IMG/VR virus record: IMGVR_UViG_3300036852_000069 | Location: 1 to 24,861 of that record | DNA length: 24,861 bases | Source: a virus | Direction: 5' to 3' (one strand) | Shown here: piece after piece, positions 6,016 through 24,861 of the stretch | How the letters are laid out: every line of letters starts with the position of its first letter | Position numbering within the stretch: position 1 is the stretch's first letter | Notes under the pieces: generated by a model | What the model saw: only the letters and a program-made list of their open reading frames with translations | Database searches by the model: none | What the model was told of the DNA's origin: nothing | Position numbers and translations under genes: made by a program

Positions 6016-6026
6016 GGGAAATTCGA

Positions 6027-7958: not shown

Positions 7959-9361
7959 ATAACGACACCCTGATTTACTTTGGCGACCCAGTCAAAGCCC
8001 TCGATGAGAAAGGCCGCGTAGGTGGTTATCTGGTCAGATTCTCTGATGATGGCTCCCAAAAGGATCTGACTGGCGAATGGTTTACCTCAAAAACCTATCT
8101 TGGACCTAAAGACGGCGACGGTGCTGAGGCTTTATTCGAGCATGGTTTCCCAGTTCTACCCAAATCAGCCAAAGACGTTGACGAAAAGACCCTGAAAGCT
8201 ATTGAAGCGTTCGCAGATCGAACTTTTCGGCCTCTCAAGACTAAGCGAGATGCGGTAGGGATATTTGCCGAGACCGTACTTGACATCGAGGATGAGTACG
8301 AAAAGTTCCTTTTTGGCAGGGTCAAAGCTGGAAAAATCGGCTGGTCAAGCGGCGCGGCGGGTCACAGAGTAGTCAAAAACAAAGATGGTGAGATAGTTCG
8401 CTGGCCGATAGCCGAAGGATCGTTGACTCCCCGTCCGGCAGAGCCTTTGAATAAAGCCATTTCCCTGAAATCTTACCTGAAATCATTTGAGGATGACGAA
8501 GATATTCCAATTGTCAAACAGGGATCGCTTTGTAAGACATTAAACCAGCGCATTGCTGACATGGAAGACAACGGGCGGTCGAAGGAAGACATTGTTAAGA
8601 AGTTAGCCCGCGAAGCGATGTTAGATCCTGGTATGGTCGTTAAGTCATTAGTCGGGGAATACCGTCCCACCTCAACAGAATTGAAAGCCTATGCGCGTGT
8701 GTTAGGAGTTGAGTACGACACGCTTAAGAATTTGAGCGTAGGTGGAAAGACGATTAAGGATCTGTTTGAAGAGGCTTTATCCGAACAGGAGTATTCTCGC
8801 TGGAATCTGGATAGCGTGTATTGCGGTATCGTTTGCAAGTTAGTGATGGCCGCGTCCGCATCGAAACTAACGGGAACAGAGTTTGATTTAGAAGGAAAGA
8901 TAAAGGAAGCGACGGACGGTTACGCCGAACGTCTCAAGGAACTCGCAATCTCACGGGCTCAGGACTATTTAGATTCCGGGTCTGATGAGCATTTCTATCT
9001 TCGCGCTATGGTTGATCCGAGCGCGGAGGACTTCGTCAACGCTAAAAACGTTGAAACCGAAGATCATATCGCATTGGTGGTGTCCGCCCTGCGAAGTCTC
9101 ACAACGCGTTTTGTCAAGAATGATGAAGCGCGGCAGAAGCAGGCGGGCAGACGACTCTCCGAAACAAATCGTCAAAGACTAAGTGACTTTCGTAAGCAGG
9201 CACTCGATCAGCTCGAAGTATGCCTAAAGCTGTACGAAGCTACTATGCCTAAAGCGAGTCAGGAAGAGATGCGTCTTGCTCAAACCGTTCATGCGCGCCA
9301 GCAGTGGCGCTTGCAACGAGGAGCAGACATAGATGCGAACGCAACAGCAAGTACAGGCTGA
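7955..9361 (+). CDS. Prohead protease with HTH-like insert and scaffold-like C-terminus
   Basis: Probably cleaves capsid and scaffold segments during head maturation. Residues about 1-170 match a prohead-protease-like domain: GYLVRFSDDGSQKDLTGEWF, ALFEHG with candidate catalytic His63, GWSSGAAGH with candidate Ser131/132, and the ending WPIAEGSLTPRPAEP. Residues about 196-260 resemble an XRE-type helix-turn-helix (LAREAMLDPGMVVKSLVGEY…ELKAYARVLGVEYDTLKNL), unusual in a protease. The remainder (about 300-468) is helical and charged, suitable for a scaffold. The 468-residue length fits a protease-scaffold fusion. The major capsid gene follows with a 29-base overlap. The catalytic assignment rests on motif context. 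Confidence 0.75.
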   Translation: MNNDTLIYFGDPVKALDEKGRVGGYLVRFSDDGSQKDLTGEWFTSKTYLGPKDGDGAEALFEHGFPVLPKSAKDVDEKTLKAIEAFADRTFRPLKTKRDAVGIFAETVLDIEDEYEKFLFGRVKAGKIGWSSGAAGHRVVKNKDGEIVRWPIAEGSLTPRPAEPLNKAISLKSYLKSFEDDEDIPIVKQGSLCKTLNQRIADMEDNGRSKEDIVKKLAREAMLDPGMVVKSLVGEYRPTSTELKAYARVLGVEYDTLKNLSVGGKTIKDLFEEALSEQEYSRWNLDSVYCGIVCKLVMAASASKLTGTEFDLEGKIKEATDGYAERLKELAISRAQDYLDSGSDEHFYLRAMVDPSAEDFVNAKNVETEDHIALVVSALRSLTTRFVKNDEARQKQAGRRLSETNRQRLSDFRKQALDQLEVCLKLYEATMPKASQEEMRLAQTVHARQQWRLQRGADIDANATASTG

Positions 9362-10757
9362 CATAGCCACCAAATCACGTCGCATCGACGAGCTTTTCGC
9401 ACTTGCGGATTCCCGAGACGACAAAGCCAACACCACTGAAGAATTGACAGAGATTAAAACTCTGAGTGGCGAGGTTACAGCGCTCGAAACGGAATCTGCG
9501 GAAGTCAAGTCCGTCGACGACATCAAAGAATCAAACAAGAAAAGAGTTGAGGGATTCAAAGAGCCTACTAACAGGATGGTTCACCCTAACAGCGATCCGA
9601 CTAAGGCGGTCGTCGAGTTCCCTTATGTTACCAACCTTAAGCACTTCACCGGAGCCACGAAGCAGGAAGCGATGACTAAAGCGTATCGCTTTGGTCAGTG
9701 GTTTATGGGGGCGGTAATGCACGAGGCAATGCCGACAAAATCCATGTTCGTCAAAGCCCAGCAATGGTGCAAAGCAAACGGGATACCTATTGAAACCACC
9801 ACGGAAATCAAGGCTGCTTCCGAAGGGGTTGACGCCGATGGCGGCGCATTGGTTCCGCCCGAGTTCGACAACACTATCATTGACCTGAAAGAGAAGTTTG
9901 GAACGTTTCGCCCGAACTCGAAGGTTGTCCCAATGGCTCGTGAGACAAAGACAGTTCCACGTCGTACCGGAGGATTGACAGCTTACTTCGTTGGTGAGGG
10001 CGCAACAATAACCGACTCAACGAAGCAGTGGGATAACGTCAATCTCGTAGCCAAGAAGATGGCCGCACTTGCGATCTTTTCTTCTGAGCTACAAGAAGAC
10101 GCGATCATCAATATCGCTGACGATCTGGCGTTCGAGATTGCTTACGCATTCGCGAACAAGGAAGACGAATGCGGGTTCAATGGTGATGGTACGTCAACCT
10201 ATGGCGGGATCACCGGAGTTATTCAAAAACTTCTTGGGTTGTCGTCAACCATCGGAGACATTGCCGGATTGGTAGTAGGTACCGGCAATACCTACGTAGA
10301 ACTCACGCTTGCCGACTTCAACGCGGTTGTGGGCCGGTTGCCTCAATACGCGGACACGGCGAACGCGAAGTGGTTTATGCATAAAACCTTCTACCATCAG
10401 GTAGCCGAGAAACTGGCGCTGGCGGCGGGTGGTGTGACCTCTTCAGAGGTTAGTGCAGGGATGAGAACGTTTCGGTTCTTAGGCTATCCAGTGCAGTTTG
10501 CTCAGGTATTGCCGAAGGCAGAAGCCAACTCTCAGGTTTGCGCGCTATTGGGCGATCTGGCGCTGGCGTCGAAGTTTGGCGATCGTCGACAGACGACAGT
10601 CTTTCTCGATCCATACTCGAAGACGGCTACCGATCAACTTCAGATCAGAGGCACGCAGCGGATCGATATAAACGTCCACGACGTAGGCAACGCAAGCGCG
10701 ACTGCCAGCGCGCGGCAAGCTGGTCCGGTGGTTGGCCTGATTACTGCCGCTTCGTAA
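9333..10757 (+). CDS. Major capsid protein, HK97 fold
   Basis: Builds the icosahedral shell. The 474-residue protein has an N-terminal helical delta region (about 1-65, with linker to about 110), the part normally removed by the prohead protease. The HK97 body follows: ASEGVDADGGALVPPEF, FGTFRPNSKVVPM, AYFVGEGATITDS, KKMAALAIFSSELQED, NGDGTSTYGGITGV, and a late RTFRFLGYPVQFAQVLP with LGDLALASKFGDRR. This order is that of the phage capsid family. ATG 9333 lies inside the 3' end of the protease gene, with GAGGAG at 9319-9324. Its position directly after the protease is typical. Confidence 0.93.
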   Translation: MRTQQQVQADIATKSRRIDELFALADSRDDKANTTEELTEIKTLSGEVTALETESAEVKSVDDIKESNKKRVEGFKEPTNRMVHPNSDPTKAVVEFPYVTNLKHFTGATKQEAMTKAYRFGQWFMGAVMHEAMPTKSMFVKAQQWCKANGIPIETTTEIKAASEGVDADGGALVPPEFDNTIIDLKEKFGTFRPNSKVVPMARETKTVPRRTGGLTAYFVGEGATITDSTKQWDNVNLVAKKMAALAIFSSELQEDAIINIADDLAFEIAYAFANKEDECGFNGDGTSTYGGITGVIQKLLGLSSTIGDIAGLVVGTGNTYVELTLADFNAVVGRLPQYADTANAKWFMHKTFYHQVAEKLALAAGGVTSSEVSAGMRTFRFLGYPVQFAQVLPKAEANSQVCALLGDLALASKFGDRRQTTVFLDPYSKTATDQLQIRGTQRIDINVHDVGNASATASARQAGPVVGLITAAS

Positions 10758-11246: not shown

Positions 11247-11255
11247 AAGGAGCCA
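11247..11255 (+). promoter_or_regulatory. AAGGAGCCA ribosome-binding motif
   Basis: One of four exact copies in the window, each just upstream of a start. Here it lies 6 bases before the GTG start at 11262 of the methyltransferase-glycosyltransferase and decides that start. Confidence 0.65.
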
Positions 11256-11261
11256 CAATCG

Positions 11262-12482
11262 GTGAAATTGAATCTCGGGAGTGGGGGAGAAGTCGAGGGG
11301 TATGTCTCGATTGACCGCAAGCAAGGCAAGGAAGCATACCCACTCGATTATCCCGACAACTCGGTTAATGAAGTTCGGGCCAGTCACATACTGGAACACT
11401 TCAACCGGGGCGAAGTAGAAAAGGTTTTGAAGGACTGGGTACGGGTACTAAAGCCCGGTGGATGTTTGAAAATTGCTGTACCGGATTTTGACTGGATCAT
11501 TGATAACCGCAAAGATCCAAAGATCCAAGGCTACCTGTTTGGTGGACAGATTGATGAGAACGACTTTCACCGGGTAGCGTTCGACGCAGACTTACTTGAA
11601 CGTCTTCTCAGGTCAGCAGGGTTAATAGATATAGGGCCGTGGACAGATGAAATTGATGATTGTTCACGATTACCCGTAAGCCTTAATCGGCTGGGGTATA
11701 AACCTTCTAATTCGTTTGGCCTCGACGAGAAGTTGGAACGAGTAAAGGACGACGAGCAGATCAAGATCGTTGGGGTTATGAGTTGTCCGAGGCTGGGGTG
11801 GACAGACACGTTTGGATCAATCACGTCAGCCTTCATGCCGCTGGGGATTGAAGTCTTTCGTCACTCAGGAGTGTTTTGGGGGCAGGGATTAACCAGACTG
11901 ATGGAAACGGCCCTGAAGAAGGGAGCGGACTACATCATCACCATTGACTACGATTCAGTATTTGAACGAAAGCATATTCACAGAATGTGCCAACTGGCGA
12001 TCGAGAATGATGATGTTGACGTGATAGTTCCGGTTCAGGTCAGGCGTGAGAATGACTATTCGATGTTCACCATGCGCGACGGAAACGGCGATCTAAGAAC
12101 GAGGGTTGCACAAACTGAATTCAGGAAACCGTTAACGAAGATCACTACCGGACACTTTGGCTTGACGCTAATTAAGTCGAGTTCATTGAAAAGGCTTTCT
12201 AAGCCCTGGTTTTTAGCCATACCCGACAAGAGCGGGGAGTGGAACGAGGGCCACGTGGATGAGGACATTTACTTCTGGCACAACTGCGAACGATCAGGTC
12301 TGAACGTGCAGATGGCGAATGAGGTAAGGATCGGGCACTTACAAAACATGATCGCATGGCCCGATCAGAGTTTTGCCCCCACTCATCAGTACGTTGGCGA
12401 GTACAACGAGAAGGGCCAGCCCAAAGATGCGGGTGGAGATTTAGAGGTTGAAGTAAAAGAAGATGAAATTAAAACTAATTAA
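11262..12482 (+). CDS. Methyltransferase-glycosyltransferase fusion protein
   Basis: Bifunctional 406-residue protein. Residues about 1-130 are a class I SAM methyltransferase: KLNLGSGG (motif I), SHILEHF, RVLKPGGCLKIAVPD, and the FGGQ…FHRVAF segment of predicted sugar/glycan methyltransferases. Residues about 168-365 are a GT-A-like glycosyltransferase: TIDYDS with a DxD-type metal site (Asp229/Asp231), KPWF (314-317), HVDEDIYFWHNCERSGL and GHL. The C-terminus is acidic and probably disordered. GTG 11262 is used, behind AAGGAG. It presumably transfers and methylates a sugar; acceptor unknown. The gene at 18462 carries the same two domains in reverse order. Neighbours are capsid and small structural genes. 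Confidence 0.85.
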   Translation: MKLNLGSGGEVEGYVSIDRKQGKEAYPLDYPDNSVNEVRASHILEHFNRGEVEKVLKDWVRVLKPGGCLKIAVPDFDWIIDNRKDPKIQGYLFGGQIDENDFHRVAFDADLLERLLRSAGLIDIGPWTDEIDDCSRLPVSLNRLGYKPSNSFGLDEKLERVKDDEQIKIVGVMSCPRLGWTDTFGSITSAFMPLGIEVFRHSGVFWGQGLTRLMETALKKGADYIITIDYDSVFERKHIHRMCQLAIENDDVDVIVPVQVRRENDYSMFTMRDGNGDLRTRVAQTEFRKPLTKITTGHFGLTLIKSSSLKRLSKPWFLAIPDKSGEWNEGHVDEDIYFWHNCERSGLNVQMANEVRIGHLQNMIAWPDQSFAPTHQYVGEYNEKGQPKDAGGDLEVEVKEDEIKTN

Positions 12483-12636
12483 GCCGTATTCGATGTTCCC
12501 CGCAGGTCAGATCGTGGATTTCGGAAGGGGTGTGGCCGAGTTATTGATACAGCGAAAGGTTGCCGAGCCCTTGAATGAAGAGAAGAAAAAGACGCCCCTG
12601 AGAGTTACTTTAGCAAAGGAGAAAGATGCCGTTTAG
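12463..12636 (+). CDS. Small phage protein, 57 residues
   Basis: Short frame with ATG 12463 overlapping the end of the fusion gene by 20 bases. The product begins KLKLIKPYSMFPAGQIVDF and continues GRGVAELLIQRKVAEPL. This is a pattern I recognise from small proteins encoded near phage capsid genes: basic start, a Gly-Gln-x-Val-Asp turn, then a helix ending in K/GxAEP. The C-terminal third is Lys/Glu-rich. No function is assigned to such proteins; they may be minor head components. Overlap with the next gene by 11 bases supports an operon. Confidence 0.65.
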   Translation: MKLKLIKPYSMFPAGQIVDFGRGVAELLIQRKVAEPLNEEKKKTPLRVTLAKEKDAV

Positions 12637-12742
12637 TCGCGAATGGGATGATTTTCCCGGCAAGGTAAACATTACCGACGACAGCATTACGTTTCCCGAT
12701 GGTACGTCAATGTTTTCGGCCCCTTCGGGTAATACCGGCTAG
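12626..12742 (+). CDS. Short structural-protein N-terminus (38 residues), possibly frameshifted to the next frame
   Basis: ATG 12626 has an excellent Shine-Dalgarno (AAGGAG at 12615-12620). The product contains VNITDDSITFPDGTSMFSAPSG, which resembles the N-terminal linker of phage fibre-like proteins (…ITFPDGT…). It ends at TAG 12742, while the overlapping frame at 12699 continues for 116 codons and lacks a Shine-Dalgarno. The two may be one gene joined by a +1 frameshift (programmed, mutational or a sequence error), or two coupled genes. Confidence 0.5.
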   Translation: MPFSREWDDFPGKVNITDDSITFPDGTSMFSAPSGNTG

Positions 12743-13049
12743 TTACATACGCACCACGGACGGAGCGCAAACACTATTAGCGGCCAAAGGATATCCACGG
12801 CATGTAATCATTCTCGTCAAAGTCGTGACCACGTTTGCCGCGGGCGATGGCGCGGCTCCGATATTTGATTTCGGAGAGACTAACTCCCCTGAAAGATTCA
12901 AGGCGGATCTGACTACGGGAACCGCAGGAGACTTTCTAATCTATGGTGGCATGTTATCGGCGTTCAAAGCCCTCATAGTTACGGCAACAGCCGCCACAGG
13001 CACAACGAGTACAGGGGCAATAGACGTAACGGCCTTAGTGTTACCTTAA
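12699..13049 (+). CDS. Probable structural beta protein, 116 residues (or C-terminal part of a frameshifted gene)
   Basis: ATG 12699 is the first in-frame start but has no Shine-Dalgarno. The first ~14 residues are read from bases that also encode the preceding small frame. From SYIRTTDGAQTLLAAKG onward the protein is rich in Thr, Ala and Gly with alternating hydrophobic residues, and ends in a Thr/Ala-rich stretch (VTATAATGTTSTGAIDV). A beta-rich virion protein is likely. No family is recognised. The absence of a ribosome-binding site, together with the well-initiated frame upstream, suggests expression depends on translation of that frame. Confidence 0.55.
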   Translation: MVRQCFRPLRVIPASYIRTTDGAQTLLAAKGYPRHVIILVKVVTTFAAGDGAAPIFDFGETNSPERFKADLTTGTAGDFLIYGGMLSAFKALIVTATAATGTTSTGAIDVTALVLP

Positions 13050-13061
13050 AGGAAAAGGTCA

Positions 13062-13286
13062 ATGGTGAAAGCTAAAGAAGAAAAAGCCAAGGAAGAGGCC
13101 AACTGGGAAGTGAAAGTATTTTTAACTCTGGGTGGGGCGGTAATCTTTGGCCCATTCAAGAAATCAGCCGCACAGAATCAGGCAAAATTCATCATTGCTA
13201 ACGGCTGCGATAAAGACGACACCTACTATCCCGCATCAGCAATTGCGAAAGTAAAAGTTTATCAAGTTGCACCAATAGGAGCCTAA
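13062..13286 (+). CDS. Small hypothetical protein, 74 residues
   Basis: ATG 13062 is preceded by AAAGGAAAAGG. The first ~14 residues are a Lys/Glu/Ala helix. The rest (WEVKVFLTLGGAVIFGPF…) looks like a small alpha/beta domain ending in VKVYQVAPIG. It lies in a run of small genes spaced 5-13 bases apart between the capsid block and the tail-like gene. No known function; possibly a minor structural or assembly protein. Confidence 0.55.
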   Translation: MVKAKEEKAKEEANWEVKVFLTLGGAVIFGPFKKSAAQNQAKFIIANGCDKDDTYYPASAIAKVKVYQVAPIGA

Positions 13287-13290
13287 AACA

Positions 13291-13479
13291 ATGTTCGGTG
13301 ATTCAATGCCAGCTCAGGAAGACACATTTAAGATGAATCTTGAATGCGGATTTTGTGGGCAACCGAATCCATCGAAGTACCACACTTGCGAGGAAAAAAG
13401 AAAATGGGAAAGGCAAAACGCCAGTCAACCACTACAGAACTCGACGACTTCATCCACCTTAGAGGATGTATCGAGTTAG
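13291..13479 (+). CDS. Small zinc-knuckle protein, 62 residues
   Basis: ATG 13291 follows TAGGAG by about 11 bases. The middle reads LECGFCGQPNPSKYHTCEEKRKW: CxxC, then His-x-Cys, one probable zinc site of the kind found in many small phage proteins. The C-terminal third is Ser/Thr/Gln-rich and overlaps the start of the next gene (13404) in another frame, so that part may be compositionally shaped by the overlap. Function unknown. Confidence 0.55.
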   Translation: MFGDSMPAQEDTFKMNLECGFCGQPNPSKYHTCEEKRKWERQNASQPLQNSTTSSTLEDVSS

Positions 13480-13916
13480 GAGTCTACAACGCTCAGAATG
13501 GAGAGATGGTTGACTATCGCAGGATAGACAACACCATCGTCACCGCTGGTCGTCGCTGGGTCTTGGAAAAGATTGGCTCCTTCAGCAATCAAACCAACTC
13601 CATCAACGCCATCGCAGTAGGTACGTCTACCACTGCCCCGGCTACCGGAGACACTGCCCTCGGTTCTGAGATCACTGCCACAGTAGGACGCTTGACGATC
13701 GGAACGTTTACCACAACGAACCTTACCTCGAGTACTCCAAGCTGGCGTGCAGAAGTTCAGTTCGCCACTGATCAGGCAACCGGAACTTTGGGGGAGGCAG
13801 GATTGTTTAACACATCGGCAGCGACAGCGGGGACTTGTCTTAGCCACGTAACTTTCTCGACAATCTCGAAAGCCACAAGTAACACGCTTTCAATAAGTTA
13901 CACAATTTCAAATTGA
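13404..13916 (+). CDS. Probable tail or fibre-associated structural protein, 170 residues
   Basis: ATG 13404 is chosen because GAGGAAAA lies about 10 bases upstream; the frame opens further back to 13344 but only as a shadow of the zinc-knuckle gene. The body is Thr/Ala/Ser-rich and beta-like. The C-terminal part contains TLGEAGLFNTSAATAGTCLS, followed by HVTFSTISK and LSISYTISN. This 'GEAGLFN…THVTF…I.K…D.L.I.YTI' pattern recurs in phage structural proteins usually labelled tail proteins. The 5' end overlaps the preceding gene by 76 bases. The 3' end converges with and overlaps the - strand gene by 19 bases. Confidence 0.65.
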   Translation: MGKAKRQSTTTELDDFIHLRGCIELGVYNAQNGEMVDYRRIDNTIVTAGRRWVLEKIGSFSNQTNSINAIAVGTSTTAPATGDTALGSEITATVGRLTIGTFTTTNLTSSTPSWRAEVQFATDQATGTLGEAGLFNTSAATAGTCLSHVTFSTISKATSNTLSISYTISN

Positions 13917-15130
13917 TCTGCTCCTTTGCTCGGAGTGATCGTAGCGTGTTTAACACCCGGATGTCTCAAGCCATTCTTGATCCTTGAAATAGTGGATTTG
14001 CCAACTCCGTATTGCCTAGCGAGTGTAGCGCCTCGAACGCCATTCGCTAGGCTTTCTTTTATCTCGCTAATCTGCAAGTCGGTTAGTTTTACGTTGGGGT
14101 TGTCTTCCCCGCAAAACTCTGCGCCGTGCTTCTTCATCCAGTGATTATCACCTCTCGCTAATTTTTCCGGATGCGTCCGTGCGCCGTTCTTATCACCTCT
14201 GGCCAGCGTCTTTGGGTTACGTCTTGCAGAACTGAGGTCGCCCCTGAGCATTAGCCCCTTTGCTGCCGCCCGTTTCTTATTTACATCTTGCGGGCAATAT
14301 CCAAGATTATCGGCAGCGTTATTCCACTTGCGTCCGTCGAGATGATCTACCTCTTGACTTTTAGGACATGGGCCAATGAATGCCTCGCTTACCAATTTGT
14401 GAACGTGCTTGCCATATCGCTTTTCCCCGCCCTTGACAAGGATGACCAGCGGATAACGGTTCGGCTTATTTGACGGTATTAGTATCTTCCCGACGTATGT
14501 GCGAGGTCGTTCGGCAACGTTGCGGACCCTTCCCAAATCTGAGATTTCATATAAACCCTCAAAGCCCTGTATCGGTCGCCACTCTTCGGTCCAGAGTCTT
14601 GTTTTTATATTCATGGCAAGGGGATGCCACCAACATCGCCGCCAGTCGGCAGCGTGCTTGAATCCGCCCTTGTGTGGGTATGCCTTGCATCGAATCTCTG
14701 CATTACCTAGCGAGCACCATAAAAACTCCGAGCCATTCAGGAATTCTGGCGATACTTTTCGTACTAGCGGCTCAATACGAATCCATGAGCCCGCCTTTTG
14801 AGATTGATCAATTGTGGCATCGATTAAGTATGTCCCGTTGACTACGAGTGCTAAGTGGCCCTTCCACATACCGGGCGCGGCGGCAGGTTGTCGAGAGCCG
14901 TCTCCGAAAGATCCGAGAACCACGGCTTGATTGGGATACCTATCTGACCTGATTACGGTTTCTAGTCTGAGGGGAAATACATCACATCGCCATGACTCAA
15001 AACAATGAATTAAGGCGGCTGTAGTGAGAATGCATGTACTGCGCCCACCGTCGTATTTTAATGCCTCGTGGCTTGCTACAAATGCGATGTGACGAAGGTC
15101 TTGCTCGGTGGTAGTATTCGGAAAGGTCAT
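13898..15130 (-). CDS. Transglutaminase-like domain fused to NUMOD4/HNH homing endonuclease
   Basis: Against the direction of its neighbours. Residues about 1-170 resemble a papain/transglutaminase-like fold: GGRSTCILTT with Cys33, GHLALVVNG with His92, YLIDATIDQS with Asp104 as a possible triad. Residues about 180-225 are NUMOD4 (EEWRPIQGFEGLYEISDLGRVRNV), 235-285 an HNH nuclease (KLVSEAFIGPCP…VDHLDGRKWNNAADNL). Then come repeated LARGDxN units and a C-terminal helix-turn-helix (LARQYGVGKSTISRIKNG), all typical of phage homing endonucleases. Met173 (14614) could be an internal start for a free endonuclease, but no Shine-Dalgarno is seen there. The start at 15130 has AAAGGAG. Reads as a homing endonuclease fused in frame to a host gene. 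Confidence 0.85.
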   Translation of the reverse strand: MTFPNTTTEQDLRHIAFVASHEALKYDGGRSTCILTTAALIHCFESWRCDVFPLRLETVIRSDRYPNQAVVLGSFGDGSRQPAAAPGMWKGHLALVVNGTYLIDATIDQSQKAGSWIRIEPLVRKVSPEFLNGSEFLWCSLGNAEIRCKAYPHKGGFKHAADWRRCWWHPLAMNIKTRLWTEEWRPIQGFEGLYEISDLGRVRNVAERPRTYVGKILIPSNKPNRYPLVILVKGGEKRYGKHVHKLVSEAFIGPCPKSQEVDHLDGRKWNNAADNLGYCPQDVNKKRAAAKGLMLRGDLSSARRNPKTLARGDKNGARTHPEKLARGDNHWMKKHGAEFCGEDNPNVKLTDLQISEIKESLANGVRGATLARQYGVGKSTISRIKNGLRHPGVKHATITPSKGADQFEIV

Positions 15131-15168
15131 GGCGTCAACTCCTTTGGCTAGTTGCGTTGTGGCTTAGA

Positions 15169-15199
15169 GCCGTTGGAGTGTTTCACGCACTCTGGCGGC
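15169..15199 (-). promoter_or_regulatory. Hairpin in the leader of the - strand gene
   Basis: GAGTG (15176-15180) pairs with CACTC (15188-15192), and GCCG (15169-15172) pairs with CGGC (15196-15199) across 3-base internal loops. It lies between the candidate -10 box and the ribosome-binding site of the gene starting at 15130, so it would form at the very 5' end of its transcript. Confidence 0.4.
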
Positions 15200-15205
15200 T
15201 TGCTT

Positions 15206-15235
15206 ATTATACCCTCTTGCCCGCCTCAAAACCTA
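15206..15235 (-). promoter_or_regulatory. Candidate sigma70-type promoter of the - strand gene
   Basis: On the - strand a perfect TATAAT (+ coordinates 15206-15211) lies about 75 bases before the start at 15130. A good -35 is lacking; the best hexamers at 16-18 bases (GGTTTT, AGGTTT, TAGGTT) match poorly. The Shine-Dalgarno AAAGGAG is at 15139-15145. A private promoter would let this gene be expressed independently of the + strand structural operon. Confidence 0.5.
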
Positions 15236-15265
15236 ACCTTCTAAGAACAGTTAAACTCTAAATTC

Positions 15266-15592
15266 ATGGAATGGATTCTTTTCGCAATCTCCATAGTTTT
15301 GGGGTGGATATGGATTGGGCTGATATTTCGTCCCTGGTGCGCGAATACCGTGATCGTCGAGAAGATCCAAGCCTCAGACACGGTTTCAACACACTGGGCC
15401 GCAGATCAGGAAAACATCACGATCAATTGCAGTGACGCGCTCAACATGGCAGATCCATTTGAGTTGGGTGGGGCGCGTTTTATTTGTCCTGATTGCAAGC
15501 GGGAATGGGACACAACTGCTCCTAATTCGGGCGCTGAATTCAAGCAACACTTAGAGACTCCTCATACAACCCAGATTGAAGGCGTGATGTAA
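15266..15592 (+). CDS. Membrane-anchored zinc-finger protein, 108 residues
   Basis: An N-terminal hydrophobic segment (about residues 3-22, WILFAISIVLGWIWIGLIF) is followed by a soluble region. Near the C-terminus is a C2H2-like zinc finger, FICPDCKREW…FKQHLETPH (CxxC and HxxxxH). A membrane anchor plus one zinc finger is an unusual pair. No family is recognised. ATG 15266 lacks a clear Shine-Dalgarno. The gene is the first + strand gene after the - strand fusion gene, so it may have its own transcription signals. The next gene starts immediately at its stop. Confidence 0.6.
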   Translation: MEWILFAISIVLGWIWIGLIFRPWCANTVIVEKIQASDTVSTHWAADQENITINCSDALNMADPFELGGARFICPDCKREWDTTAPNSGAEFKQHLETPHTTQIEGVM

Positions 15593-15769
15593 ATGTCTGC
15601 TCCTGAGCCTAAGAAAGAAGAAAAGTCAGAGTACGAGCGGTACTTCATGAGTCCTTCGGTGGTCTCTGTCCGTAGGGTTGAGGACAGGTGGGAAGTCAAA
15701 GGGCCGTGGGAAGATCCATTTTATGTTGATGATGAAAGTTTCAAGAAGAAGTTTTCTGTTCTTTACTAA
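15593..15769 (+). CDS. Small hypothetical protein, 58 residues
   Basis: ATG 15593 directly follows the upstream TAA. The product starts with a Lys/Glu-rich segment (SAPEPKKEEKSEYERYF), then SVVSVRRVEDRWEVKGPWEDPFYV and a basic end. WEVKGPWEDPFY reads as a beta-hairpin with a Trp/Pro turn. No membrane segment, no metal motif. Only 3 bases separate it from the next gene, so it probably belongs to the same transcript. Function unknown. Confidence 0.55.
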   Translation: MSAPEPKKEEKSEYERYFMSPSVVSVRRVEDRWEVKGPWEDPFYVDDESFKKKFSVLY

Positions 15770-15772
15770 CTT

Positions 15773-16390
15773 ATGAGTTGGCAAATCACAGCGGCGGATG
15801 ACATTGATGCTGATGGAACGGGATCGGCTACTACAGGGTTTGTGCCGGGCGGGGGTGCATCTCTTAATAAAGGCTTCAACTTCCGCGACACATTAGCCTT
15901 CGTCACGGATGGCGCTAATCAAATCTTTGTGAATGGTACTGATGTTTACCCCGTTACCAGTGGTGGCGTTACATTTGGGTGGAGTTCAACGGCGGCGGAA
16001 GTAGACAGGAGCAGTTCTGTCGATCCCCGATTCGCTGGTGTTCATTATCAATCCAATACGGGCACCAGGAATAGCTTCAGGGTTGATCTATCAGCCGGGA
16101 CTTACACTATACATTTAGCTATTGGAGATCAAGGGGCTAGTCATACCGATCAGTATGTAGAGGTCTTAGATAACACCACCAGTCGCGCCATTATTGACAT
16201 AGTTGGCGGCGTGACAGCGGACAACTTTCTTGATGCTACTGGTGTGTCGAGAACAAGGGCTAACTGGCCGACACAAAACGTTTCAATTAGCGTCAACGTT
16301 TCGTCTGGAATCCTGATCGTAAAAATTGGGACTCTTACCGATCCGGGCAACTCATCGGTTACGGTGTTGGCCCATATGTTTATTGACTAG
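15773..16390 (+). CDS. Beta-sandwich (malectin-like) probable carbohydrate-binding structural protein
   Basis: The 205-residue protein is almost wholly beta-like. Its order is that of malectin/jelly-roll domains found in phage and bacterial surface proteins: FNFRDTLAFVTDGANQIFVNG, then YPVTSGGVTFGWSS, VDPRFAGVHYQSNTGTRNSF, RVDLSAGTYTIHLAIGDQGA, and VSSGILIVKIGTL near the end. Such domains typically bind glycans. With the beta-helix protein downstream, it likely forms part of a fibre or spike. ATG 15773 has no strong Shine-Dalgarno and lies 3 bases after the previous stop. Its stop overlaps the end of a convergent - strand gene by 4 bases. Confidence 0.65.
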   Translation: MSWQITAADDIDADGTGSATTGFVPGGGASLNKGFNFRDTLAFVTDGANQIFVNGTDVYPVTSGGVTFGWSSTAAEVDRSSSVDPRFAGVHYQSNTGTRNSFRVDLSAGTYTIHLAIGDQGASHTDQYVEVLDNTTSRAIIDIVGGVTADNFLDATGVSRTRANWPTQNVSISVNVSSGILIVKIGTLTDPGNSSVTVLAHMFID

Positions 16391-16536
16391 CTTTTGAGCC
16401 ACGCACGCAGGCGGGCAAAGATGCTTTGAGACACACGCCGTCGGTAATAGACGGAGCAGAAATGGTTTTGACAAGCACAAGTCGAGGGTTCAGTGCAGTG
16501 GCTATGGCGTTTTCGCTGGCAAGCTGAGCAGATCAT
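16387..16536 (-). CDS. Cys-rich zinc-finger protein, 49 residues (- strand)
   Basis: In what otherwise looks like a 300-base gap, the - strand encodes a short protein starting MICSACQRKRHSHC and continuing to CACQNHFC. The C..C….H..C…..C.C..H pattern is the one I recognise from many small zinc-finger proteins of phages. The C-terminal half is Arg-rich. An AAAGGA Shine-Dalgarno precedes the start (+ coordinates 16546-16551). It is the second of two adjacent - strand genes. Role unknown, perhaps nucleic-acid binding. Confidence 0.6.
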   Translation of the reverse strand: MICSACQRKRHSHCTEPSTCACQNHFCSVYYRRRVSQSIFARLRAWLKS

Positions 16537-16556
16537 GTTGAGCGTTCCTTTAAAAG

Positions 16557-16676
16557 TTAATCTTGCTTGGGTTTACGAAACGCAAACAGGGCAAGAATTG
16601 CTATAAGAAAGAAGATGGGGAATACGATTTTAAGCAAGTCAGGGCGATCAATAAACCATTGAAGGTACCACTTCAT
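16557..16676 (-). CDS. Single-pass small membrane protein, 39 residues (- strand)
   Basis: Encoded 20 bases upstream of the Cys-rich - strand gene and in the same direction. It starts MKWYLQWFIDRPDLLK, has one hydrophobic segment (about 17-33, IVFPIFFLIAILALFAF) and ends in a basic RKPKQD tail, as expected for a membrane protein with its C-terminus on the cytoplasmic side. No Shine-Dalgarno is obvious. A weak promoter-like pair (TTGCAA … TAAGAT, about 18 bases apart) lies just upstream, inside the + strand beta-helix gene start. Function unknown. Confidence 0.5.
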   Translation of the reverse strand: MKWYLQWFIDRPDLLKIVFPIFFLIAILALFAFRKPKQD

Positions 16677-16692
16677 ACGGGAATCTTAGAAG

Positions 16693-18210
16693 ATGTCTGA
16701 CTTCGTTTGCAACACATCTGGGGACTTCTCGACCGCCTTAACAGGTTCGGTTGGCGGTGACACGATTACTCTTACCGCAGGAACTACCTTTACCGGTCCA
16801 TTCACGCTTCCCGTCCACTCAGGCAGTGGATATGTAACCATCCGCAGCTCTGATCTGGCAAGCCTCGCAGAAGGCGTTCGCGTTGCCCCAGCAGATGTCT
16901 CGCACATGCCGAAGATTGTCACCGCGACGGACAACACAAGCGCGATCCTTACTGCCGTTAGCGCCGCCCACTGGAAGCTTTTGGGATTAGAAATTACTAC
17001 TTCCACGGGTTCAGTGTCGATCAATGATCTGGTCTCTCTTGGTGATGGCTCAAGTGCTCAGGATCAACTCTCTGAAGTGCCGGATGACATCGTTATCGAC
17101 CGATGCTATATCCACGCTGCAACTACTTCTCAATCACTCAAGCGCGGTATCTCTCTGCAAAGTTCCAATACAACGATCACGAATAGCTATATTTCAGACT
17201 TCAAAGTCGTTGGCCAAGACTCGCAGGCGATAGCGGGATGGAATGGGCCGGGTCCATTCACGATCACCAATAACCGACTAATTGCTGCTGGGGAAAACAT
17301 TATCTTCGGCGGTGCCGCTCCCTCAATCACTAACCTGATCCCTTCCGACATTACGTTTAATCTCAACCATTGTTCTAAGCCTTTAACATGGAAGACTAAC
17401 GATCCTTCATATGCAGGAATTCACTGGTCGGTTAAGAACATCTTTGAAATCAAGAACGCTCGTCGTGTGCAAATCTGGGGCAACTTGTTCGAGTACAACT
17501 GGCAAGACTCTCAAGCTGGCTATGCAGTGTTGTTTACTTGCATCGACGACTCAAGTAGTTGGGCCAGAATTGATGATGTGGTGTTTGCGAATAATATCAT
17601 TCGCCATTCAGGATCAGGAATAAACATTAGAGGTCGAGATGATATTGGGGCGTCGATGACCAACCTCACGATCAAGAACAACCTGTTAGAGGATATCAGT
17701 ACAACATGGAACTCTGGCGGGTCTGCCGCTGGGACGTGGCTACAGATTCTTCGTGGCCCAACTAATCCAACCATTAACCATAACACCGCATTTGCCGACG
17801 GCACAACCGCGGTAGGATTTGACGGAGAAACAGGAACAGGATTGGTAATCACCAACAACATTTTCTTCCACAATACCTACGGTGTGAAAGGTACTGGAGG
17901 AGGCGTGGGAACCTCGACCCTAAATCTCTTCTATCCCTCGTCTTATACGTTTTCAAAGAACGTGCTTCAAGGCGGATCATCTGGCGACTATCCGGCTAAT
18001 AATTTCTTCCCCGCGAATGTGAGTGATATTCAATTCGTCAACTATGCCGGGGGCGATTATCACTTAGGATCAGGAAGTCCATACAAGAATGCTGCGCTAG
18101 ACGGAACAGATATCGGCGCAAACATCGACAACTTGTTAACGCTGAACGATCCGAATGTGACTGGCAATGTCACGACTTCCAACGTTCGTCTTTTCATTCA
18201 AGTAATATGA
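16693..18210 (+). CDS. Right-handed parallel beta-helix protein (tailspike/depolymerase-like)
   Basis: The 505-residue protein has the repeating short beta-strand rhythm of a right-handed parallel beta-helix, with many Asn-rich turns: TITNSYISD, FTITNNRLIAAGENIIFGG, VVFANNIIRHSGSGINIRG, LTIKNNLLEDIS, LVITNNIFFHNTYGV. The N-terminus (GDTITLTAGTTFTGPFTLP) and the C-terminal GGDYHLGSGSPYKNAALDGTDIGA are typical of secreted or virion beta-helix proteins. The fold is used by phage tailspikes that bind or cut surface polysaccharide; catalytic residues cannot be named from sequence alone. Located after the malectin-like gene and before glycan-enzyme genes. Overlaps the next gene by 4 bases (ATGA). 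Confidence 0.75.
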   Translation: MSDFVCNTSGDFSTALTGSVGGDTITLTAGTTFTGPFTLPVHSGSGYVTIRSSDLASLAEGVRVAPADVSHMPKIVTATDNTSAILTAVSAAHWKLLGLEITTSTGSVSINDLVSLGDGSSAQDQLSEVPDDIVIDRCYIHAATTSQSLKRGISLQSSNTTITNSYISDFKVVGQDSQAIAGWNGPGPFTITNNRLIAAGENIIFGGAAPSITNLIPSDITFNLNHCSKPLTWKTNDPSYAGIHWSVKNIFEIKNARRVQIWGNLFEYNWQDSQAGYAVLFTCIDDSSSWARIDDVVFANNIIRHSGSGINIRGRDDIGASMTNLTIKNNLLEDISTTWNSGGSAAGTWLQILRGPTNPTINHNTAFADGTTAVGFDGETGTGLVITNNIFFHNTYGVKGTGGGVGTSTLNLFYPSSYTFSKNVLQGGSSGDYPANNFFPANVSDIQFVNYAGGDYHLGSGSPYKNAALDGTDIGANIDNLLTLNDPNVTGNVTTSNVRLFIQVI

Positions 18211-18452
18211 AACCTCGCGCAGTAAATCTTTCAGCTAATTTAACCCCAGCGGCGTTGGGTTATCCGGCAAAGTTTACCCTGAAGAAACCTGACGCTTCAT
18301 TAGTTACAAAATCTATTCTCACAGATACACAAGGTAAGGCAGTTGCTCAGTTTTCATTAGGACAGAGATACCCTCACGGAACTTATGTAGGAAAAGTTGA
18401 GATAGTAGTAGACGGAAAAACAATTTCAGATAGTCAATCAGTCGTACTTTGA
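18207..18452 (+). CDS. Small Ig-like beta-sandwich protein (copy 1)
   Basis: 81 residues, beginning at the ATGA overlap with the beta-helix gene. Contains GYPAKFTLKKPDASL, ILTDTQGKAVAQFSLG and PHGTYVGKVEIVVDG. This is the pattern of a small Ig-like or macroglobulin-type beta-sandwich, with the conserved DTQGKA…F turn and a G-x-Y strand. It is a paralogue of the gene at 20973. Probably a fibre accessory or linker domain. The following glycosyltransferase gene starts 9 bases after its stop. Confidence 0.65.
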   Translation: MKPRAVNLSANLTPAALGYPAKFTLKKPDASLVTKSILTDTQGKAVAQFSLGQRYPHGTYVGKVEIVVDGKTISDSQSVVL

Positions 18453-18460
18453 AGGAGCCA
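18452..18460 (+). promoter_or_regulatory. AAGGAGCCA ribosome-binding motif
   Basis: Exact copy of the recurrent motif, one base before ATG 18462 of the intein-containing glycosyltransferase gene, so the core GGAG is 4 bases from the start. Confidence 0.65.
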
Positions 18461-18461
18461 G

Positions 18462-20945
18462 ATGTCAGAAAACATTCCAGCCTTAAAGCCCGGTTATCAC
18501 CCTATGCGAACGGGACTGCTAACCGGAATCCCCCTGAGCGGTAGACCGCTGCATCCCCAATTCACATTTAGTTACGCAGCTCTCCATCCACCCATGTGCT
18601 ACAACATGAACGTCATGACGGTGTGGATGAAGCCTGTCGACGTAGCGCGAAATGAAATAGCGGAAAAAGCAGTAGAAATGGGCGCGCGTTTTATTTTCTT
18701 TATTGACGAAGATGTAACTCCACCCGGTCACGCATTAAGACAATTGATTTACCAAGCCGAGCATCATCCTGAGGGAGCAATATTCGGCGGGATCTACTGT
18801 CATAAATCTCCTCCAGCTATGCCAATGATATTCAAGAATGGGTTGGGCGCGGGGCCGTATTGGGATTGGAAGGTTGGAGAGTTTTTTGAAGTTGATGGCA
18901 TTAGCATGGGATGCACGCTCGTGAGAGTCGATGCACTTGCGAGTATTCCTAAACCTTGGTTCAAGTGCTACTCAGCCGACACAGAGGTTTTAACAAAACG
19001 TGGCTGGCTGGCATGGCCGGACGTGAAAGACAGTGATGAGTTTGCCACCAGAAATGTGGACGGCTGGCTTGAGTGGCAATTTGCTTCTAGTCTGACGAAT
19101 CTGCCTCACAACGGCGAGATGGTATCTTTCAAAGGTGAGGCTTCGGATCTCTTAGTCACTGAGAATCACCGTATGTATGGGTTTGAATGGAAATACGATT
19201 GCACAAAAAGGGAGGGCCATAAGGGGCCACTACAATTCATTGCGGCCAAAGATGTAGCGTCCCGTTTCTCAAAACGTGGACCAGGACAACGAGGATTCAG
19301 AGTGCCAAGCACCGTCAGTTGGCTCGGCACTTTACCGCCTGAGGGGGATATCTTTCAACTGACATCTGTCTTTGACGGACCGGGACCAAAGCCAATTAAA
19401 AGATCCATTGACCTCTCCGACTGGGTAGCGTTTTTAGGTTTGTACCTCGCCGAAGGTTCTTGTGAGGGCACATTCAAGCAATATGGAATTACGAAGAACG
19501 CCGTTGATGATCCTCGCTCGCATTATGAGCAGGCGATGGCATTTGTTGCTTCCGGTATGCCTGCCAACTATCCGTCACATCCGTCTACAAATAGAAGCAA
19601 CGCGACGAGGGTGGCCATTACCCAAGCTGCCAAGAGTCGGTATTACGCAGAAATAAATAGTCTTCTCGAAAAGCTTCCTTGGCGATTTAGGCCGACCGTC
19701 CATGGCTTTGTAGTCAACGACAAAGGACTGCACCATGAACTATTTCGGCTAGGCAATAAATACATCAAGCACGTGCCCCAATGGGTCAAGGATCTCCCGG
19801 CTTCTTATCTGGAGATCTTTCTGACTTGGTTTAACAAAGGGGATGGCTCGATTCGCAAAAATGGCGACAGGGTTTACTTCACAACTAGCAAGCAGCTCGC
19901 AGATGATTTACAGGAAATCATCTTGAAGATCGGACGGTCAGCCACCATCAGGAAGTACGCAGGCCGAGCAGCAACTGTAGGGGATCGTGTTATAGATAAA
20001 TCTCGGACGGCAGCGGGTTATTTTCTTTATGAGCGTAAAGCTAATTATGTAACGCTCGGTTCTGCCTCGACCGAAAACTATGAAGGTCGAGTCTATTGCG
20101 CTACCGTGCCGAATGAAGTGCTATACGTGCGACGTAACGGGAAACCAATGTGGTGCGGGAACACCGTAGATGATGCCTCTGCCTATTGGGATGGTGTTCC
20201 TAAAGCAGAAATGTGGACAGAAGATCTATGGCTATGCGATCGTGCAATTAAAGCAGGGTGGAAAGTCTATGCCGATGCCTCAGTGTTATGTGAGCATTGG
20301 TCCATCGAAACAATGAGTCCTACGGTCTTACCTCCTGACTGTTTGCCTCGACGCAGGGCAGGATGGACCAAAGGAACGAAGAAGATTGTTGATCTTGGCT
20401 GTGGCGAGAACCCTTACACGACTGATGAGGGCGATGTCCTAACGGTTGATATTCGAGAGAATGTGAACCCTGACTATCGTTGTGACCTGAGAAAACTTCC
20501 TTTTGCGACCGGAGAATTTAATATTGTCTACTCCAGTCATGTGCTCGAACATTTCCCGCGTAATGCTGTCCCCGAGATCCTTGATGAGTGGATTCGAATA
20601 CTGAAGGACGACGGCGAGTTTCGGTTGATAGTGCCTAATATTGAATGGGCCGCAAAGGAGATCGTAAAAGGCACGATCAATAACGATGTGATGAACGTTC
20701 TATATGGTGCGCAGAGCTATGGCGAGAATTTTCATCAAATGGGTTTCACTCCTAAGGTGCTCACGGAGATGCTGACGGAGCGCGGATTCAAACGCATTGA
20801 CGTGGAATTGATGCACTACAATCTATGTATGAGGGCATGGCGCAAGGTCCCTAAGAACGCTCCCAAACCACTAGGCGAGATAGTGCAGGCAAAAAAGAAT
20901 GGACACAAGAAAACTAAGCAACCAGTAATGAAACGAGGTAAGTAA
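18462..20945 (+). CDS. Glycosyltransferase-methyltransferase fusion interrupted by an intein
   Basis: 827 codons. Residues 1-168 and 568-~620 together form a GT-A-like glycosyltransferase: MCYNMNVMTVWMKPVDVARNEI, FFIDEDVTPP (DxD-like, Asp82/Asp84), EVDGISMGCTLVRV, IPKPWFK, then MWTEDLWLCDRAIKAGWKVYADASVLCEH. Residues 169-567 are an intein. Residues about 638-790 are a SAM methyltransferase: KIVDLGCGENP, SSHVLEHF, RILKDDGEFRLIVPN, LYGAQSYGENFHQMGF. The C-terminus is Lys-rich. Spliced product would be 428 residues, close to the 406 of the paralogue at 11262, which has the two domains in opposite order. ATG 18462 is set by AAGGAG. It probably decorates a glycan; acceptor unknown. Confidence 0.88.
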   Translation: MSENIPALKPGYHPMRTGLLTGIPLSGRPLHPQFTFSYAALHPPMCYNMNVMTVWMKPVDVARNEIAEKAVEMGARFIFFIDEDVTPPGHALRQLIYQAEHHPEGAIFGGIYCHKSPPAMPMIFKNGLGAGPYWDWKVGEFFEVDGISMGCTLVRVDALASIPKPWFKCYSADTEVLTKRGWLAWPDVKDSDEFATRNVDGWLEWQFASSLTNLPHNGEMVSFKGEASDLLVTENHRMYGFEWKYDCTKREGHKGPLQFIAAKDVASRFSKRGPGQRGFRVPSTVSWLGTLPPEGDIFQLTSVFDGPGPKPIKRSIDLSDWVAFLGLYLAEGSCEGTFKQYGITKNAVDDPRSHYEQAMAFVASGMPANYPSHPSTNRSNATRVAITQAAKSRYYAEINSLLEKLPWRFRPTVHGFVVNDKGLHHELFRLGNKYIKHVPQWVKDLPASYLEIFLTWFNKGDGSIRKNGDRVYFTTSKQLADDLQEIILKIGRSATIRKYAGRAATVGDRVIDKSRTAAGYFLYERKANYVTLGSASTENYEGRVYCATVPNEVLYVRRNGKPMWCGNTVDDASAYWDGVPKAEMWTEDLWLCDRAIKAGWKVYADASVLCEHWSIETMSPTVLPPDCLPRRRAGWTKGTKKIVDLGCGENPYTTDEGDVLTVDIRENVNPDYRCDLRKLPFATGEFNIVYSSHVLEHFPRNAVPEILDEWIRILKDDGEFRLIVPNIEWAAKEIVKGTINNDVMNVLYGAQSYGENFHQMGFTPKVLTEMLTERGFKRIDVELMHYNLCMRAWRKVPKNAPKPLGEIVQAKKNGHKKTKQPVMKRGK
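18966..20162 (+). other. Intein with LAGLIDADG homing endonuclease (399 residues)
   Basis: Starts at Cys169 (CYSADTEVLTKRGW, block A) and ends at Asn567 (WCGN), with Thr568 as the +1 residue. Block B is LLVTENHRMYG with TxxH. Two LAGLIDADG-type helices are visible: FLGLYLAEGSCEG (acidic Glu331) and FLTWFNKGDGSI (acidic Asp461). Block F is RVYCATVPNEVLYVRRNGK, with Cys in place of the usual Asp. The penultimate residue is Gly rather than His. The insertion point lies between PWFK and T, beside the catalytic TEDLW segment. The element should self-splice and may spread by homing. Confidence 0.9.
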
Positions 20946-22992: not shown

Positions 22993-24520
22993 AGCAGGGA
23001 CGTAAAATCAAAGTACCACCCGAGGATCGGAGAATTACTTCGATTGCGCCATCTGCTGTGGTGTCACAGTTGAAGTTTGCTACCGTCTCAGACAATCTAA
23101 ATAATTTCGACGATGACTTTCAGTATAGCTTCGGGATCGCGGTTGATCTTACCCTGGACCTTTCGGACTCTTTCTCGCTTTCTGATTCTCTATCCCTCTC
23201 CATAGGTATATCGGCGGATGTTGCTGACGCCTTTCTGTTTCTCGATTCCTTCACTATTGATCGGGGAATAGGAGTAGGTCTCAGCGATACTTTTACTCTT
23301 ACGGATAGCGTCTCACTCGGGCAGGGAATGTCCGTCGCGGACGCTTTAACCCAAACAGACGCGATTGAATTAAGTCTCCAATACTTATCCGAATTATCAG
23401 ACCTCATGAGCCTGACTGACGGCCTGGAGGTTGGGTTCGGACTGGCCACTGAAGATCAGTTTACCCTCACGGATTATCTGGAAATCGGGCCGAGCCAGTC
23501 TGTCAGCGATTCTTTCAGCCTTTCGGACGCTCTAACCCTGACCATTGGCTATCCCCTTGAGGCTGCTGACGCGCTTGGGCTGTCAGACGGGCTTGGAATA
23601 GGCTTTGGGTTGTCTACGTCCGATCAGATCGCTCTGGCGGACTCTATCGCTACGTTTGGGCAGATCTTCCTGACTATTGAGGACTCAATTTATAACTGGG
23701 ATGAATTCTTTATTGCCATCCCCCAAGGCGTTGACTTTGCCATACAAAGATCAGACTCCTTCAGCCTCGACGATTCAATTACGTTGTTCTCGGCAGGCTT
23801 TAAGTCTTTCGCAGAGGCTTTAACCCTCTCTGACGCTTACGCGCAACGCGGAGACGGATTAATCGCATTCTCCGATCAGTTCACCCTTACCGACTCGGTA
23901 ACAAAGACGATTGATTGCCGACTGTCGTTTACGGAGAGCATAAACAATCTTAGTGACAATGTTGCTTTGCTGGGTAACGGGCTGATTGTTAAAGCCGAAT
24001 CAATAAATAACCTTGCTGATGCTTATGCCCAAAGAGCCAATGGCCTTAAGTCTTTCACGGAACAACTAACCCAAACAGACGCTTTCTCGATGATTGAAGG
24101 AGAGCGTGAGATCCTTTCGGATAGTTCGATTCAGCCTGCAGATGGTACAGCTCGATCTGGATCGATCTGGGATATAGGGGTCACAGGAGAACAGTTAACC
24201 CAATCTGACGCTATAGCCGTAAATCTTGATTCTGTCCTGCGTCAAGTCGTTGTCAGTGATTCATTCACACTCACAGATAGTTGCGCCACCCAACGAGGCC
24301 CATCGCGTTGGCGTGACGCGATTGTGGTACAGACCTCAGTCTCCTCTGCGCTTACTCAAAACTTGAGCGATTCACTGCCAGCAATGGCCGATGCTTTTGT
24401 GCAGAAGAAACCACGCTGGCGTGATGCAATCTCCGTAGTCAAAGCCAACACCTCTGGATTGACACTAAGTTTAAGCGACACCAACTCATCCATGAGTGAT
24501 GCCGTCTCGACTGACAGAGT
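22084..24520 (+). repeat. Degenerate coding repeats (SINNLADAY / SDSFxLxD)
   Basis: Across two adjacent genes, units of about 18-20 residues built on S-D-x-F-x-L-x-D and S-I-N-N-L-A-D-A-Y recur many times. At DNA level the units are similar (for example around 22188, 22359, 22519 and 23999, AA(T/C)AA(T/C)CTTGC(C/T)GA) but not identical. They are ancient and diverged, unlike a CRISPR or recent tandem array. Confidence 0.75.
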
Positions 24521-24861
24521 TCAGATTGGGACTCCGATTTCTGATATTTCCGTAGGGCTATGGTCAGCTACTCCCCTGTTCCAGAAGATTGATGAGTTCA
24601 CCGCCTCAGACGCAGATCTGATTGTCTCCGCAACCAACCCCGCAAGCGATACGTGTGAGGTTGGATTGACTACAACCACCACCGATCCAGTGAGTTCGTC
24701 AAATCATATTGTCAGCTATCGCTACAAGAAGACTGCAAGTGGAGGAAGGCAGATCGATTTGACAGTCAGACTGATGCAGGGAACAACAATCATTGCCACT
24801 TTCACGCATACAAATATCTCGAACGTGATTGCTCAGGCCGATCAAGCATTAAGCGGAGCAC
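22989..24861 (+). CDS. Ser/Asp-repeat structural protein 2 (3' partial)
   Basis: Open from ATG 22989 to the window end (624 codons, no stop), overlapping the previous stop by 4 bases. After a basic N-terminus (MKQGRKIKVPPEDRR), residues about 28-510 are a long run of degenerate repeats such as LSDSFSLSDSLSL, LSDTFTLTDSVSL and VSDSFSLSDALTL, with PSRWRDAI and KPRWRDAI units late in the array. The final part (from about residue 518) changes to a beta-sandwich-like domain: GLWSATPLFQKIDE, HIVSYRYKKTASGGRQIDL and VRLMQGTTIIATF. Probably a long fibre or stalk ending in a globular domain. It shares repeat type with the preceding gene, suggesting duplication. Confidence 0.7.
   Translation, partial: MKQGRKIKVPPEDRRITSIAPSAVVSQLKFATVSDNLNNFDDDFQYSFGIAVDLTLDLSDSFSLSDSLSLSIGISADVADAFLFLDSFTIDRGIGVGLSDTFTLTDSVSLGQGMSVADALTQTDAIELSLQYLSELSDLMSLTDGLEVGFGLATEDQFTLTDYLEIGPSQSVSDSFSLSDALTLTIGYPLEAADALGLSDGLGIGFGLSTSDQIALADSIATFGQIFLTIEDSIYNWDEFFIAIPQGVDFAIQRSDSFSLDDSITLFSAGFKSFAEALTLSDAYAQRGDGLIAFSDQFTLTDSVTKTIDCRLSFTESINNLSDNVALLGNGLIVKAESINNLADAYAQRANGLKSFTEQLTQTDAFSMIEGEREILSDSSIQPADGTARSGSIWDIGVTGEQLTQSDAIAVNLDSVLRQVVVSDSFTLTDSCATQRGPSRWRDAIVVQTSVSSALTQNLSDSLPAMADAFVQKKPRWRDAISVVKANTSGLTLSLSDTNSSMSDAVSTDRVQIGTPISDISVGLWSATPLFQKIDEFTASDADLIVSATNPASDTCEVGLTTTTTDPVSSSNHIVSYRYKKTASGGRQIDLTVRLMQGTTIIATFTHTNISNVIAQADQALSGA

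Follow-up and report, generated by a model that had tools for sequence, protein, structure and literature searches.

Two glycosyltransferase-methyltransferase fusions of opposite domain order, one interrupted by a predicted intein, in an uncultured tailed phage

Protein A064R of the Paramecium bursaria chlorella virus PBCV-1 consists of two glycosyltransferases (GTs) followed by a methyltransferase (MT), and its C-terminal class I MT methylates a sugar which the same protein has added to the capsid glycan; this chlorovirus also encodes a GDP-mannose 4,6-dehydratase (GMD), A118R, and A061L is listed alongside A064R (PMC9614988). WsaE of Geobacillus stearothermophilus is a soluble protein of the order MT-GT-GT, which 2-O-methylates rhamnose (PMC2943079). 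A197 of the Sulfolobus turreted icosahedral virus (STIV) is proposed to act on that virus's major coat protein, which is glycosylated (PMC10551542), and PMC11600133, citing Freeman 2023, relates that an O-methyltransferase gene and three GT genes of cluster O mycobacteriophages are reported to modify capsid and tail tube. The present work concerns a viral DNA stretch of 24,861 bases (IMG/VR uncultured-virus record IMGVR_UViG_3300036852_000069, positions 1 to 24,861; the whole of it is here called the window), in which terminase, portal and HK97-type capsid genes are recognised by Pfam and PHROG, and in which two genes each combine one GT with one MT, in opposite orders. The reading preferred here, with a probability of about 60%, is that both encode a soluble A197-like GT attached to a class I MT, that the second yields an enzyme of 428 residues by protein splicing, that the two arose as separate fusions, and that they decorate the virion.

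The likeness to A064R and WsaE is one of description. The second gene codes, like A064R, for a viral GT-then-MT protein in a virus with a GMD gene, yet A064R has two GT domains of other GT families, belongs to an algal virus and is described with no mention of an intein; each fusion protein here has one GT domain, in place of the two GTs followed by an MT that define the A064R family. WsaE shares with the first gene product an N-terminal MT ahead of the GT part within one soluble protein, but it has three domains and caps a bacterial S-layer glycan chain. A197 (PDB 2c0n), likewise a small viral GT-A protein, is matched by both profile and fold, although it comprises the GT domain only, without an MT, and comes from an archaeal virus. 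The cluster O phages are likened by gene content, the genes being separate and unfused. In Caudoviricetes MW202573 (Manatee Spring), two genes behind the coat gene, an MT gene overlaps a GT gene with the annotation "A197", but these are two unfused genes of distant sequence. The initial annotation knew of no description of such an arrangement; its principle is in fact familiar from A064R, WsaE and the cluster O phages, and what is new within the literature searched is that A197-type GTs are fused to MTs and that a single phage has both orders.

The coordinates of both genes proved right and their reading frames open. Their parts are as follows:

11262 to 12482, plus strand: MT-GT fusion gene, 406 amino acids, GTG start, AAGGAG at 11247 to 11252
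11262 to 11711, plus strand: methyltransferase domain of the MT-GT gene, with LGSGG, HILEHF and FGGQ (Methyltransf_11, 1.1e-5; phrog_6636 methyltransferase, 4.9e-8)
11760 to 12416, plus strand: GT-A glycosyltransferase domain of the MT-GT gene, with DYD at residue 229 and DED at 333 (Glycos_transf_2, 2.2e-4; phrog_1574)
18462 to 20945, plus strand: GT-[intein]-MT gene, precursor of 827 amino acids, predicted spliced product of 428
18462 to 18965, plus strand: N-terminal part of the GT domain, with DED at residue 82 and PWFK at 165-168, collinear with the intein-free relatives L005 and L006
18966 to 20162, plus strand: intein, 399 amino acids (residues 169-567), with Cys1, block B TENH, terminal Gly-Asn and Thr +1
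19440 to 19961, plus strand: LAGLIDADG homing-endonuclease region within the intein, with LYLAEG and NKGDG (PF14528 LAGLIDADG_3, 1.5e-5 / 2.6e-6)
20163 to 20345, plus strand: C-terminal part of the GT domain, with TED at precursor residues 586-588 (extein 187-189) and phrog_1574 at residues 574-618
20373 to 20861, plus strand: methyltransferase domain of the GT-MT gene, with LGCGE, HVLEHF and YGAQ (Methyltransf_11, 3.1e-8; Methyltransf_23, 5.9e-7; class I methyltransferases by Foldseek)

The initial claim that gene 11262 encodes MT then GT and gene 18462 GT then MT is borne out by Pfam and hhalign. In gene 11262, Methyltransf_11 (residues 25-69, E 1.1e-5) precedes Glycos_transf_2 (residues 182-310, E 2.2e-4, slightly below the Pfam gathering score); in gene 18462, Methyltransf_11 lies at residues 658-720 (E 3.1e-8), and the N-terminal GT is marginal (0.059) because the intein splits the domain. 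Methyltransf_11 passes its gathering cutoff of 21.2 in both genes, at 26.4 and 34.6 bits. The domains of gene 11262 (MT1, GT1) and of gene 18462 (GT2, MT2) were compared by hhalign using family alignments built from relatives, with GT1 against MT2, MT1 against GT2 and column-reversed profiles as controls. GT1 and GT2 are collinear over 219 columns (probability 98.9%, E 1.5e-16, 17% identity) and MT1 aligns with MT2 over 159 columns (99.6%, E 5.6e-23), while the controls reached 3.6% at most. The kinship proposed for the two MT and the two GT segments therefore holds and, on this profile evidence, the sharing of domains in opposite order is real, beyond chance. The motifs first noticed by eye are also present in both proteins, HILEHF at residue 42 corresponding to HVLEHF at 693, FGGQ at 93 to YGAQ at 748, and PWF at 315 to PWF at 165. 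The shared segment running from PWF to ED is, however, absent from the precursor of gene 18462, where about 420 residues separate the two, with the 399-residue intein between them, and would exist only in the spliced protein. Acidic motifs are DYD 229 and DED 333 in gene 11262, and DED 82 and TED 187 in the extein of gene 18462.

Calling the two enzymes "permuted", as was done initially, implies a rearrangement, and, as one genome holds both orders of the same pair of domain families, one fusion could indeed have given rise to the other inside the phage, through circular permutation or a shuffling of domains. Against this, GT1 is 57-58% identical to free GTs but 17% identical to GT2, and in the trees it falls with free GTs, apart from GT2, while MT1 does not join MT2 but clusters with bacterial MTs that are free (97/96). 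The trees thus disfavour permutation of a single ancestral gene, which is considered highly improbable; the simpler reading, which they favour, is that members of these two families became fused on two separate occasions. The distribution of relatives differs between the two orders. A single full-length MT-GT relative was found (L029:4512-5702, 49% identity), and this GT type otherwise stands alone (L025, L027, L028, L030 and an extra copy in L004, a sibling contig that matches the window at 99.4% or more). The MT-GT protein had no match in the phage collection, where the matches of L029 were confined to an MT segment, in Pseudomonas phages and in a single uncultured phage. Protein and alignment searches of viral contigs gave ten intein-free GT-MT relatives, one of them truncated by the contig end, and a scan of the genome collection added one fused GT-MT on a Gemmatimonadaceae metagenome-assembled contig (L046) and two free MTs, an outcome too sparse for a host assignment; by these sequence matches, uncultured phages commonly have the GT-MT order.

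The insert in gene 18462 is, by its motifs and predicted fold, a LAGLIDADG intein, which would excise itself from the 827-residue precursor and join KPWFK to TVD. It carries the residues of a class 1 intein (Cys1, TENH at intein residue 65, Asn399 and Thr+1), except that the penultimate His, which is usual and not strictly defining, is replaced by Gly. The empty site is exact: L005 and L006 (65% identity) align with the precursor end to end minus 399 residues, with KPWFK joined to TVD, from which a mature enzyme of 428 residues is predicted; as the intein had been missed, the size initially assigned to the second enzyme was roughly double that of its mature form. A degenerate DNA pattern of this junction occurs in 19 viral contigs, all of which code for this type of GT, with a clear MT behind it in 15, the start of an MT at the contig end in one and no MT match in three. 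The intein sequence alone had no match in the PDB; the fold search did find inteins, with TliVMA and PI-SceI, both homing-endonuclease inteins, as its top matches. Matches of gene 18462 to the PHROG families "thymidylate synthase" and "ribonucleotide reductase" were set aside, for they span the insert and neither the GT nor the MT, and arise because inteins occur inside those families.

The Gly in place of His, together with the interruption of the GT between its DED and TED motifs, might be taken to mean that the insert no longer splices and that the gene is being lost, leaving gene 11262 and the free GT to act. Cys1, the TxNH of block B, the terminal Asn and Thr+1 are nevertheless retained, and the frame is intact, with an identical protein in L004. 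Related inteins are present at 14 other viral loci, within unrelated proteins, and each ends in Gly-Asn, followed by Ser, Thr or Cys, so that the Gly is normal for the aligned group. A class 1 intein in the recombination directionality factor (RDF) of a mycobacteriophage also has Gly at this position and splices (PMC5050341); the likeness to it lies in that residue and not in a sequence alignment, and it is the ground on which membership in the inteins is retained. Since the penultimate Gly is compatible with splicing, a decaying gene is a very unlikely explanation, and an intein that splices is preferred. The insertion point lies between DED at residue 82 and TED at 586 of the precursor (187 of the extein), for which reason GT2 should need splicing in order to work. 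Conditional splicing, by which the glycan coat would be switched or timed against a constant activity of the free GT and of the MT-GT enzyme, which has no intein, is the most speculative of the ideas raised here and is given very little credence.

The intein also has relatives in annotated phages, and matches in sequence the inteins of a mycobacteriophage nucleotidyltransferase and of the thymidylate synthase of corynephage P1201. Known phage LAGLIDADG inteins reside mainly in proteins of DNA metabolism, whereas the host protein here is a glycosyltransferase. An earlier intein in a glycosyltransferase was not found in the literature search, which left most subscription journals outside its scope and is hence no proof of novelty; within the papers that were searched, an intein in a glycan GT of a phage is new. 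Two further loci were observed among the intein relatives: a second viral glycosyltransferase (L037:2557-4896, family-4-like, with a weak Pfam match of 0.0012) contains an intein of the same family, and an open reading frame at L040:2734-6939 seemingly carries two such inteins in tandem.

Predicted models of both proteins are of modest confidence (mean predicted local distance difference test, pLDDT, of 60 for gene 11262 and 68 for the 827-residue precursor). The first model resembles in Foldseek the protein-glycosylating enzymes GalNAc-T and ColGalT1 as well as A197 (2c0n, TM-score 0.63 by target length), although the GT1 family profile alone found no match in the PDB; a single Foldseek search with the precursor model returned homing-endonuclease inteins, A197 (2c0n, 0.58) and methyltransferases, and the GT2 family profile matches 2c0n with E 4.7e-4. 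Judged by profile and modelled fold, both GTs are GT-A enzymes like A197. This bears on the possibility that the enzymes glycosylate and methylate bases of the phage DNA as an anti-restriction measure. Phage GTs that modify DNA are known (PMC12838424), yet the resemblance of both GTs is to a proposed coat-protein glycosylator (PMC10551542), that of the gene 11262 model is to enzymes acting on proteins, and no genes for the biosynthesis of hypermodified bases were recognised in the window; a role in DNA modification is accordingly held very unlikely. An Rfam search of the window also gave no match.

The genes around the two fusions bear on the substrate:

4939 to 6015, plus strand: GMD gene (TIGR01472 gmd, 422 bits against a cutoff of 415; PF16363, 2e-122)
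6012 to 6347, plus strand: small cupin of polysaccharide-biosynthesis type, overlapping the GMD gene by 4 bases (PF14667, 3.1e-7; weak WbuC-family match)
9333 to 10757, plus strand: HK97-type major capsid protein gene, two genes upstream of the MT-GT gene (PF05065, 7.3e-35)
13344 to 13916, plus strand: tail-fibre-like protein gene (phrog_4176 tail fiber protein, 1.7e-12)

In keeping with the initial annotation, which placed them among head and fibre genes, the fusion genes lie among head and tail genes, with terminase, portal, capsid and fibre-like genes for neighbours, and more precisely behind the capsid gene and among the fibre-like ones. Relatives of the tail-fibre-like gene were found by tblastn near GT-MT genes in eight other loci, and annotated phages have a related GT, or an adjoining MT and GT, just behind the coat gene. 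In L004 the gene immediately upstream of that for the major tail protein encodes a third GT, without an MT (L004:18986-19753). Phages commonly encode glycosyltransferases that modify the O-antigen, and GT and MT domains taken alone would fit such acceptors too, so that both enzymes might act during infection or lysogeny on a host surface glycan, with seroconversion or superinfection exclusion as the outcome, and not on the virion. Hydropathy revealed no transmembrane segment in either fusion protein, however, and both appear soluble, unlike the membrane-bound GtrB/GtrC type; the position of the genes among late structural genes and of the third GT next to the gene for the major tail protein likewise speaks against a host glycan, which is regarded as an unlikely target, if less so than DNA.

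The GT-A likeness, the GMD gene, the structural-gene context and the third GT together favour decoration of the virion. The GMD match exceeds the NCBIfam equivalog cutoff, so that the phage is probably able to channel GDP-mannose into a 6-deoxy sugar, a possible supply of activated donor. In each protein, an A197-like GT-A glycosyltransferase would be tethered to a class I S-adenosylmethionine-dependent methyltransferase; the GT would move a sugar, possibly a 6-deoxyhexose made by way of the GMD, onto a virion structural protein or onto sugars already there, and the attached MT would methylate the sugar transferred. The "transfer sugar, methylate sugar" system initially suggested is in this form plausible, and decoration of virion proteins with methylated sugars is probable, the donor, the acceptor and the methylation with its position being our inference. 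Several points weigh against this reading. A GT-A fold reveals neither donor nor acceptor, Methyltransf_11 no methyl acceptor, and a position beside structural genes does not identify an acceptor. Over 5 kb separate the GMD gene from each of the two fusion genes, and it did not turn up in those flanks of relatives that were searched; its product yields a 4-keto intermediate, for which no dedicated reductase was recognised within the window, and sugar nucleotides of the host may serve the GTs as donors. The trees that favour separate fusions have long branches and few taxa.

Some further features of the window were observed. Four cysteines (CVLC...CADC) stand in an extra C-terminal tail of the GMD (5900-6015), which may be a small added zinc-binding element. 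In an open reading frame of 410 amino acids on the minus strand (13898-15130), a NUMOD4/HNH endonuclease is joined to about 175 residues without assigned function, whose single match, weak and distant, is in an uncultured phage of 595 kb; it looks as though a homing endonuclease had inserted itself into a different gene. Between 8462 and 23926 the window and L004 differ at one site, but the final 935 bases (23927-24861), part of a repetitive fibre-like open reading frame, hold 91 differences; these are mostly synonymous (70 synonymous and 17 nonsynonymous codons), a pattern that suggests exchange with a related phage by recombination and not a diversity-generating element.

The fusion of the same families on two separate occasions suggests that the coupling of sugar transfer and methylation is favoured. 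With this intein, whose exact junction is testable, a glycosyltransferase joins the types of phage protein in which inteins reside. Virion glycans affect the recognition of phages by antibodies (PMC11600133). If the proposed function is true, uncultured tailed phages would often carry enzymes which, in one polypeptide, add a sugar and then methylate it for their own particles, and this would extend to viruses of prokaryotes what PBCV-1 proves.

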